A stretch of DNA of 64,000 bases from Cytophagales bacterium Alg240-R148 (GTDB taxonomy: Bacteria; Bacteroidota; Bacteroidia; Cytophagales; Cyclobacteriaceae), in the NCBI GenBank assembly GCA_900537185.1, contig LS999827.1:67001-131000 (forward strand). The letters are read 5' to 3'. Below are positions 48,529 through 50,313 of this stretch, piece after piece. The notes under the pieces were generated by a model, which was given only the letters and a program-made list of their open reading frames with translations, made no database searches and was not told where the DNA came from. Made by a program: the position numbers and the translations under genes. Numbering within the stretch: the first letter of the stretch is position 1; the number at the start of each line of letters is the position of its first letter.

Positions 48529-50313
48529 ATGACGGATATTATGATAGGTAACAGCAACCAACACTCTTTTCATATACCGGTTATGGGTACCGGCTACACT
48601 ATTGACACCCCTTTAAAAGTTGCACATTTGGGCATTTCTTCCGTAATATCAATACTAGACGACCAGTTAATAGAATCCATCCGAGAAGTGTATTCCAAAA
48701 AACTCGCGGTACCCTTTACAGGTATATCGGCAAAATCCGAAGACCACCGCGCCCGTAGAATAACCGAGTACCTCAATTTAATTGACCATACTGTCCAGGA
48801 AAAAATGGCGGAGCTTATACAGTCGTTTAATGAAAAGAAAGAAGATATTCTGACTTATTTCAGTATGCTCCCTAATAAGCACCAACTAATAGAGGAGTTC
48901 AAAAAAAGAATACAACTAGGCAATGCGGCTGCCACCTCTACCTGGTTAAAAACAGTTCTTCAACCGGGATCCATTGATGTCAACATTATGACCAAGCTAG
49001 ACAGGCCTAGTGAGGATAAAAAAAACGCTGCAACACCGGCCCACAATGAAGCCCATGCCGCCCTTAGAGGTTTTGCCAAAAGCTCCTTGCATGCATCCAT
49101 AATTCTTTCGGCAGGTCTTAACCCTAGATTGTTTAGTTACTTTGAAGAATTTGAAGATTTTTACCCCAATAGAAATGGGGATATCAATAAAAAGATTATC
49201 ATTAAGGTGAGCGACTATCGCTCCGCTTTAATCCAGGGTAAATTCTTCGCAAAAAAGGGCATTTGGGTATCTGAATTTCGAATTGAATCTGGTTTGAATT
49301 GTGGTGGGCATGCCTTTGCCACTGAAGGACACTTAATGGGGCCCATTTTAAATGAATTCAAGAACAACCGCGAAGAATTAAAGGAAACTTTATTTGGAAT
49401 CTGCAAAGATGCTTTGGGAAACAAAGGGAAAACCGTTCCAAATAAAGCACCCATTCAAAAAATTACTGCACAAGGCGGTGTAGGAACTTCGGAAGAGCAC
49501 CAATTTCTAATCCAGCATTACGGACTGGATTCAGTAGGTTGGGGAACACCATTTTTATTGGTCCCTGAAGCGACTTCAGTGGATTCTGCAACTTTAAACT
49601 TACTTGCAAAGGCCAAAGAAAAAGACTTATACCTCAGCGATATTTCTCCATTGGGTGTGCCTTTTAATAACATACGGGGCAATAGCAAAGACATCGAGAA
49701 AGAGCAGTTAATTGCGCAAGACAAACCTGGTAGTTCTTGCCCTAAAAAACACCTAGCATTGAGCAAAGACGCCAATGGCAACAGTACCTGTACTGCTTCT
49801 AGTAAATACCAGAAAACAGCAATTGAAGCGTTACAAAATCAAGGGTTGCCCCCCCATGTTTTAGAACAAAAAATAAAAGCGGTTACAGTAAAATCTTGCA
49901 TTTGTGTTGGACTAGCAGCTTCTACACTGGACCTGTACCACGCTGCCAATAAAAAACTTAGCAATAAAGTAACAATTTGTCCAGGGCCCAATTTGGCTTA
50001 TTTCAACCGATCTGTTTCTTTAAAATCTATGGTAGACCACATTTACGGTAGGGCCAATGTTTTAGCCGATGCCAACCGCCCTAATATGTTCATCAAAGAA
50101 TTGAAAATGTACATCGATTATTTTAAAAACAAAGTCGAAAAACCAATAGATGGTGTAGATAAAAAGCAACAGCAAAAAATTGATGCTTTCAAAAACAACT
50201 TAAAAGAAGGGATTGAGTATTACAACCAACTTTTCCAAGAATCTAAAAACAATTTAGATGCAGTAAAAAAACAAACATTAACTGCTTTGAAAACACTGCA
50301 AACATCGCTTTAA
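48529..50313 (+). CDS. Cysteine-rich protein distantly related to nitronate monooxygenases
   Basis: Protein of 594 residues whose name I do not know. Its shape suggests a divergent TIM-barrel FMN enzyme of the nitronate monooxygenase/enoyl-reductase group: an opening IPVMGTGYTIDTPLKVA (17-32), a phosphate-binding-like AQGGVGTSEEHQ (314-325) followed by YGLDSVGWGTPFLL (331-344), then DISPLGVPFNNIRG (371-384), which matches the 'SP.G.P.R.I' stretch after the last strand in that family. Additional Cys residues stand at 258 (LNCGGHAFA), 404, 421, 457, 459 (KSCICVGLA) and 484 (TICPGPN). The C-terminal 100 residues are helical. Cysteine placement suggests a metal or Fe-S site. Partner genes: an ABC pair 47 bp upstream. 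Function is not assigned. Confidence 0.55.
   Translation: MTDIMIGNSNQHSFHIPVMGTGYTIDTPLKVAHLGISSVISILDDQLIESIREVYSKKLAVPFTGISAKSEDHRARRITEYLNLIDHTVQEKMAELIQSFNEKKEDILTYFSMLPNKHQLIEEFKKRIQLGNAAATSTWLKTVLQPGSIDVNIMTKLDRPSEDKKNAATPAHNEAHAALRGFAKSSLHASIILSAGLNPRLFSYFEEFEDFYPNRNGDINKKIIIKVSDYRSALIQGKFFAKKGIWVSEFRIESGLNCGGHAFATEGHLMGPILNEFKNNREELKETLFGICKDALGNKGKTVPNKAPIQKITAQGGVGTSEEHQFLIQHYGLDSVGWGTPFLLVPEATSVDSATLNLLAKAKEKDLYLSDISPLGVPFNNIRGNSKDIEKEQLIAQDKPGSSCPKKHLALSKDANGNSTCTASSKYQKTAIEALQNQGLPPHVLEQKIKAVTVKSCICVGLAASTLDLYHAANKKLSNKVTICPGPNLAYFNRSVSLKSMVDHIYGRANVLADANRPNMFIKELKMYIDYFKNKVEKPIDGVDKKQQQKIDAFKNNLKEGIEYYNQLFQESKNNLDAVKKQTLTALKTLQTSL

Follow-up and report, generated by a model that had tools for sequence, protein, structure and literature searches.

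A conserved protein family that profile databases do not name

What is encoded by a single open reading frame that runs from an ATG at 48529 to a stop at 50313 on the + strand of a 64,000-nucleotide window (the whole stretch of DNA analysed here)? An initial annotation read its 594-residue product as a divergent nitronate monooxygenase (NMO)-like TIM barrel with extra cysteines. Profile scans with Pfam and NCBIfam yielded no model that names the protein. The Pfam NMO model PF03060 matched neither the window protein (E up to 10) nor any of the seven scanned members of its family, hereafter A2 (E up to 1); searched against the protein's own genome at E up to 10, it returned 14 places, among them other NMO/FabK-type ones, and the window gene was not one of these. 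The PDB held no significant sequence relative, and neither phmmer nor hmmsearch retrieved a FabX chain at E up to 10, so no direct similarity to FabX was detected. Searches by sequence alone against Pfam, NCBIfam and the PDB gave sub-threshold matches only, most of them to the helical tail.

Relatives were nonetheless readily found in genomes. A scan of GTDB contigs retrieved six, at 49-55% identity to the window protein, in records from Flavobacteriaceae, Flavicella, Cytophagales, Ignavibacteriales, Melioribacter and Omnitrophota. Within the window's phylum, 142 of 395 sampled genomes have an A2-family match, nearly always one (G290 has a C-terminal piece only), and relatives occur in 7 of 97 genomes from the phylum of the Omnitrophota MAG, with eight proteins among them. 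The A2 alignment has 47 rows: the window protein, the six loci from the GTDB scan and 40 of the 141 other matched genomes, hand-picked to spread over families. Relatives in the 46 other loci align over nearly their full length at 41-56% identity, with L075 starting later, and mean column identity is 54% over the length. Six columns, those of Cys258, Cys404, Cys421, Cys457, Cys459 and Cys484, hold cysteine in 47/47 rows and no other column has it in more than eight; the NMO-type His261 is also invariant. The same six cysteines, read by script, are kept in seven of the eight Omnitrophota-phylum proteins, and direct reading of the eighth (L151) found all six as well, in CGGH, SACPK, ICTAS, ACLC and CPGPN. 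Given these near full-length relatives and invariant cysteines, the window ORF is not a chance frame: it is a real gene of a conserved and widespread family. We recognised no paper describing this family in a literature search that covered only a minority of subscription journals. A tblastn search of plasmids with the window protein gave one chance-level match, and viral contigs had no A2-family match. Two matches look like broken copies: in G095:C1 a single in-frame stop interrupts a full-length match, and three fragments lie elsewhere, while the G002:C1 match contains one stop.

The motifs quoted in the initial annotation are all present (GTGYTIDTP at residues 20-28, AQGGVGT at 314-320, GWGTPFLL at 337-344 and SPLGVP at 373-378), as are the five cysteines it listed (404, 421, 457, 459 and 484, with CIC at 457-459). 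Its total of six extra cysteines needs correction: the five listed are conserved, the sixth conserved one is Cys258, near the catalytic-type His, and the protein has a seventh, Cys292, which is not conserved (8/47 rows). Features of the gene are as follows.

48529..50313, + strand: whole gene, A2 family, almost certainly of the NMO/FabX superfamily (ORF call, 47-row alignment, hhalign)
48634..48654, + strand: predicted barrel strand 1, residues 36-42; Ser41 in 46/47 rows (model, alignment)
48661..48969, + strand: long helical insertion, residues 45-147, between barrel strands 1 and 2 (models, profile alignment)
48973..48987, + strand: predicted barrel strand 2, residues 149-153; invariant Asn152 aligns with FabX Asn99, an FMN contact
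49210..49257, + strand: residues 228-243, aligned with the FabX ACP-binding helix, register uncertain; Arg231 invariant, Lys243 in 45/47
49285..49311, + strand: ESGLNCGGH, residues 253-261; Glu253, Cys258 and catalytic-type His261 all invariant
49471..49488, + strand: QGGVGT, residues 315-320, FMN phosphate-type loop
49537..49557, + strand: GWGTPFL, residues 337-343, second FMN-contact stretch; Thr/Ser340; Gly337 versus Gln in relatives
49645..49656, + strand: SPLG, residues 373-376, invariant; aligns with the FabX Ser273 motif
49738..49740, + strand: Cys404, predicted [4Fe-4S] ligand (conservation, profile alignment)
49789..49791, + strand: Cys421, predicted [4Fe-4S] ligand, weakest of the four (conservation, profile alignment)
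49897..49905, + strand: Cys457-x-Cys459 (CIC), predicted [4Fe-4S] ligands (conservation, profile alignment)
49978..49992, + strand: CPGPN, residues 484-488, invariant; Cys484 aligns with FabX Phe339, an FMN contact
50074..50310, + strand: helical C-terminal tail, residues 516-594; variable beyond about residue 569

Profile and structure comparisons point to the NMO/FabK/FabX superfamily

We compared the A2 alignment with profiles of cysteine-bearing NMO relatives. A query modelled on an actinobacterial NMO group (CLCN and GGHNAPPR motifs) found three plasmid records, two annotated as nitronate monooxygenase and the third without annotation. In the window's phylum, 28 of 296 genomes have relatives, from which two alignments were made: A3, with 13 of 15 extracted proteins (L104 and L113 left out), and A4, with 9 of 13 proteins from genome family f18, a group about 45-51% identical to FabX over a FabX fragment. 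The same fragment, used as a query, found the FabX-type proteins L130 and L131 (55 and 53% identity over the fragment). All four relatives scanned with PF03060 (two from A3, one from A4, and L130) scored above its cut-off. Alignment A6 joins two FabX-type, seven A4-type and eleven A3-type proteins in 20 rows.

The hhalign E-values given here are each for one single pairwise comparison. A2 matched A3 weakly (E 0.023), and its score of 27.6 is hardly above the best shuffle scores seen with other targets (23.3 and 24.9). The match to A4 had an E-value of 1.2e-4, and that to A3 and A4 joined scored 64.8 (E 3.1e-7); in the control for this joined set, 30/30 column shuffles scored 24.9 or less and the reversed profile 18.7. 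Against A6, the probability was 95.5 and the E-value 1.5e-8 over 355 columns, and with the six cysteine columns masked the values were 90.6 and 1.3e-6. Since A3 by itself is weak, A4 and the joined sets carry the case for the link.

We generated two AlphaFold models from 7-row alignments, one of the window protein (model 1) and one of its relative L004 (model 2), with mean pLDDT of 57.6 and 59.0; much of the C-terminal part is below 50 in both. Both models have a barrel-type strand-helix repeat in which a long helical insertion separates strands 1 and 2. In Foldseek, the first matches of model 1 were Helicobacter pylori FabX (E 4.1e-4) and the DfnA enoyl reductase; for model 2, DfnA came first and PEP synthase third, and FabX was absent among the best 50 rows, though VIA-align finds it. 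With VIA-align 2, model 1 matched the MlnA enoyl reductase (Z 13.9, 3.7 Å, 221 aligned), PfaD (Z 13.8, 4.5 Å, 219 aligned) and, below further PfaD and DfnA rows, FabX (Z 12.0, 5.1 Å, 222 aligned). Model 2 matched PfaD (Z 15.4, 6.7 Å, 283 aligned), MlnA (Z 14.9, 3.8 Å, 234 aligned), FabK (Z 13.7, 3.0 Å, 185 aligned) and FabX (Z 13.7, 4.8 Å, 248 aligned). The best matches of both models were thus PfaD, the MlnA/DfnA enoyl reductases, FabX and FabK. With model 2, IMPDH rows also score up to Z 12.3, so structure alone separates the superfamily only modestly and is not decisive. Profiles and models together uphold the proposed TIM barrel of NMO/FabK/FabX type, and the A2 family almost certainly has the fold of this flavin-barrel superfamily and belongs to it.

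The family nevertheless differs from each known system. PfaD and the MlnA/DfnA enoyl reductases (PDB 4z9r, 4z38, 4cw5), which have the highest Z with both models (4z9r 13.8 and 15.4; 4z38 13.9 and 14.9), are parts of PUFA or polyketide synthases, unlike the A2 protein. FabK enoyl-ACP reductase (PDB 2z6i, 5gvh, 9pl0) shares the predicted FMN barrel and the catalytic-type His, and, in the comparison with FabX given in PMC8626469, has an NAD(P)H-binding domain where the A2 family has its cysteine subdomain. The GGHNAPPR/CLCN 'nitronate monooxygenases' (L102, Streptomyces WP_263217088.1; L103, Deinococcus WP_239048221.1; L105-L116) share a C..C..CxC arrangement after their SPTG motif and a strand 1-2 insertion of comparable length, but L102 and L103 match PF03060, GGHNAPPR stands in place of GGHAFAT, and Ala and Thr replace Cys258 and Cys484. 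The f18 group of FabX-related proteins of about 420 residues (L117-L129; L117:1174-2433 (-)) has the same four C-terminal cysteines, but L117 matches PF03060, and the group has two further cysteines (DCWTCG) and a smaller insertion. FabX itself (HP0773; PDB 7e1q, 9jsy; PMC8626469) is among the closest known systems, with an FMN TIM barrel of the NMO family (predicted for A2), a catalytic His after GG, a Ser motif and a C-terminal cysteine subdomain in common. It differs in its cysteine spacing, and the A2 family adds two flavin-side cysteines, Gly337 for Gln240 and a helical C-terminal tail. Judged by cysteine spacing, the A2 family is not FabX; judged by the PF03060 cut-off, below which it falls, it is not a Pfam NMO.

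The N-terminal half had been said to hold about 150 additional residues, an overestimate. Between the strand-1 Ser and the strand-2 Asn we count 111 residues, compared with 41 in FabX-type L130, 67 in L117 and 93 in L103, and the excess over L130 before the GG at 316 is 106 residues.

A predicted flavin site with two additional cysteines

In the A6 comparison, conserved N, E, H, GG, T and S residues of the relatives stand opposite N152, E253, H261, G316, G317, T340 and S373. By our own offset count from L130, the FabX counterparts are N99, E175, H182, G220, G221, T243 and S273, which are described as FMN contacts, the catalytic His and its partner (PMC8626469). N152, E253, H261, G316 and G317 are present in 47/47 A2 rows, as is T or S at 340; within GGHAFAT, the active-site motif of the window protein, H261 and F263 are invariant. 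Glu253 paired with the Glu of the relatives in some runs only; in others it was displaced by one residue, falling on V196 against A4 and on V when masked. FMN contacts had been expected within residues 314-344, and residues 316, 317 and 340 indeed align with FabX FMN contacts, but Gly337 (47/47 A2 rows) replaces Gln240, an FMN side-chain contact in FabX that is Gln in 20/20 A6 rows. To our knowledge, this Gln is not a defining signature of the whole superfamily.

Two of the invariant cysteines fall at flavin-side positions. Cys258 pairs with A164 of L130, the FabX S179 position, and Cys484 with F326, the FabX F339 position; both are FMN contacts in FabX, and the counterparts are not cysteine in the related groups (A3, A4 and FabX-type). 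We therefore read Cys258 and Cys484 as putative flavin-side residues special to the A2 family and not as cluster ligands. A three-centre enzyme, in which FMN and a [4Fe-4S] cluster would be joined by a Cys258/Cys484 redox disulfide or a covalent cysteinyl-flavin, seems improbable; we know of no such chemistry in the NMO superfamily. If true, the two extra cysteines would constitute a new active-site arrangement.

Four of the six cysteines are candidate cluster ligands

We next considered whether the remaining four could hold a metal. Cys404, Cys421, Cys457 and Cys459 pair with C361, C381, C404 and C406 of L103; the A4 comparison pairs them with C319, C332, C359 and C361 of L117, and in separate comparisons the four correspond to the cysteines that are invariant in A3 and in A4. 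In the unmasked A6 comparison, however, the L117 row has Cys404 one residue off (beside C319) and Cys421 unpaired. With the cysteine columns masked at default settings, the alignment stops before this region and aligns none of the four. At loose settings, the masked profile aligns the CxC of Cys457/459 in all three targets; Cys404 aligns against A6 only (not on the L117 row) and lands on a different cysteine against A3, and Cys421 aligns in no target. On the L130 row, Cys404, Cys421 and Cys457 pair with C291, C299 and C307, by our count FabX C300, C308 and C320, whereas Cys459 meets an Ile and FabX C304 has no counterpart in the A2 family. The ligand pattern described for FabX, C300-x3-C304-x3-C308-x11-C320 (PMC8626469), is thus not that of the window protein.

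Because the four cysteines have invariant counterparts in related NMO groups and fall within the subdomain binding [4Fe-4S] in FabX, a [4Fe-4S] cluster on Cys404/421/457/459 is quite likely. Against this, the cysteine region is mostly below pLDDT 50 in both AlphaFold models. The initial suggestion of a flavin-metal enzyme is largely right by homology, both cofactors being predicted, but four cysteines, not six, look like ligands; and the enzyme would be unusual without being unprecedented, as an NMO with flavin and [4Fe-4S] has been published (PMC8626469). In that account, the FabX cluster potentiates FMN oxidation during acyl-ACP dehydrogenation, the cluster domain apparently stands in for FabK's NAD(P)H-binding part, and characterised NMOs other than FabX lack the cluster.

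The gene stands alone and is fused to a reductase in one genome

In the 47 A2 loci (up to 7-8 kb on each side, some shorter), no neighbour family occurs in more than nine, and immediate neighbours cluster in pairs only. The upstream gene is on the same strand in 24 of the 47, with a gap under 60 bases in five. The A2 gene therefore stands alone, with no neighbour common to the loci. One fusion was found: a 1168-residue ORF in an Omnitrophota-phylum genome (L158:6369-9872 (-), on G487:C15) joins an A2-family protein to Flavodoxin_1, FAD_binding_1 and NAD_binding_1 domains. By its domains, the fused part is a CysJ/CPR-like, NADPH-type diflavin reductase, which suggests that NADPH-derived electrons enter the enzyme. 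The same genome has a second, unfused A2 copy at G487:C5. In the window's phylum, FAD_binding_1 is a rare domain, present in 14 of 247 genomes, and shows no association with the A2 family (5 of 96 genomes with it, 9 of 151 without), so most members must use another electron donor.

Proteins of the related groups were largely found where the A2 family was not. At E up to 1e-20, A6-type (A3, A4 or FabX-type) proteins occur in 109 of the 395 genomes. One of these, G068, which carries the A2 family, was set aside: its borderline match (7e-21) is a 316-residue frame that we read as plain FabK/NMO. The other 108 include none of the 142 A2-bearing genomes, against about 39 expected (hypergeometric 2.5e-26, universe 395 genomes). 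Most of them (81/108) belong to the single family f18; outside f18, the count is 0 of 27 with 9.7 expected (hypergeometric 3.5e-6). Thus, the A2 family and the A3/A4/FabX-type proteins exclude one another as if replacing each other, a pattern confounded by phylogeny. Genus g80 has one genome of each kind (G059 with the A2 family, G232 with an A3-type protein). In genome families f25, f35 and f39, genomes with an A2 protein occur beside genomes that have a GGHNAPPR/CLCN-type or FabX-type one in its place.

A candidate flavin/iron-sulfur oxidoreductase and its alternatives

Collectively, we consider it probable that the A2 protein is a distant branch of the NMO/FabX superfamily with flavin in its barrel and an Fe-S cluster in its tail, and its mode of action is very probably that of a FabX-type flavin/iron-sulfur enzyme. 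It would be a cytoplasmic oxidoreductase, as no signal peptide is seen by eye in the 594 residues. FMN would sit in the barrel, held by Asn152, Glu253, GG316-317 and the Thr340 region, with His261 as the acid/base residue. The subdomain after SPLG373-376 may take the place of the NAD(P)H-binding part of FabK and, as in FabX, would position a [4Fe-4S] cluster on Cys404, 421, 457 and 459 near the flavin, so that electrons could be exchanged among an external carrier, the cluster, FMN and the substrate, for which our tentative guess is an ACP- or CoA-bound acyl thioester. In at least one lineage, NADPH electrons probably arrive via the fused diflavin reductase; this single fusion is a slight hint at reduction rather than FabX-type oxidation.

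One alternative, a FabX-like acyl-ACP dehydrogenase/isomerase, would convert medium-chain acyl-ACP to the enoyl form in unsaturated fatty acid synthesis and transfer electrons from FMN via the cluster to oxygen or another acceptor. This is rather unlikely: the cysteine spacing differs, some 106 extra residues precede the GG loop, the gene has no neighbours common to the loci, and the fusion suggests electron input, although FabX is the best Foldseek match of model 1, the order of barrel and cluster subdomain is the same, and no co-occurrence with FabX-type proteins was seen among the 395 genomes (G068 set aside). Basic residues near the FabX ACP-helix region also speak for it. An ungapped hand mapping places R231 (47/47), I235 (43/47), the non-basic F239 and K243 (45/47) at K152, I156, R160 and R164, and the gapped profile alignment places R231, F239 and K243 at K152, I156 and R160; Arg231 falls at K152 in both registers tried, but the register of the rest is uncertain. 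A second alternative, an ordinary NMO or general flavin oxidase whose cysteines bind zinc, form disulfides or do nothing, would fit the superfamily assignment by profiles, the nitronate monooxygenase annotation of two relatives with four of the cysteines, and the reported lack of a cluster in characterised NMOs except FabX (PMC8626469). Packing in a reducing cytoplasm would, however, hardly account for six cysteines kept in 47/47 rows, the full-length mean column identity of 54% suggests a dedicated function, and FabX, with cysteines in this subdomain, binds [4Fe-4S] (PMC8626469); we regard such an enzyme as unlikely.

Neighbouring genes in some genomes suggest instead a role in making a cofactor, namely biotin, thiamine or NAD. 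Among the eight Omnitrophota-phylum loci (L006, L158-L164), thiC is adjacent in five, bioB is adjacent in three and trxB is nearby in four; such neighbours were noted at L006:2776-11628, L159, L160, L161 and L162, thiC being convergent and bioB divergent. Four of the 47 A2 loci (L063, L064, L065 and L077) have nadA and nadB in the same stretch of at most about 15 kb as the A2 gene. By contrast, bioB, thiC and trxB are absent from 46 of those 47 loci, the exception being Omnitrophota locus L006. The association with bioB is negative (38 of 96 A2-bearing genomes compared with 91 of 151 without the family), and with 58 of the 96 lacking bioB, a biotin role is unlikely. A cofactor-biosynthesis enzyme of any of these kinds is very improbable.

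The flavin/iron-sulfur oxidoreductase favoured here would be a common one: about one third of the sampled genomes of the phylum (142/395) carry this strongly conserved enzyme, and the members tested are without a Pfam or NCBIfam match. In gut Bacteroidales, overexpression of a nitronate monooxygenase named FabX is reported to lead to ceftriaxone tolerance (PMC11300592). If the A2 protein is an FMN/[4Fe-4S] oxidoreductase, FabX would no longer be a lone case and would become one branch of cluster-bearing NMOs, and the mutual exclusion of the A2 family with other branches suggests that they may share a job.
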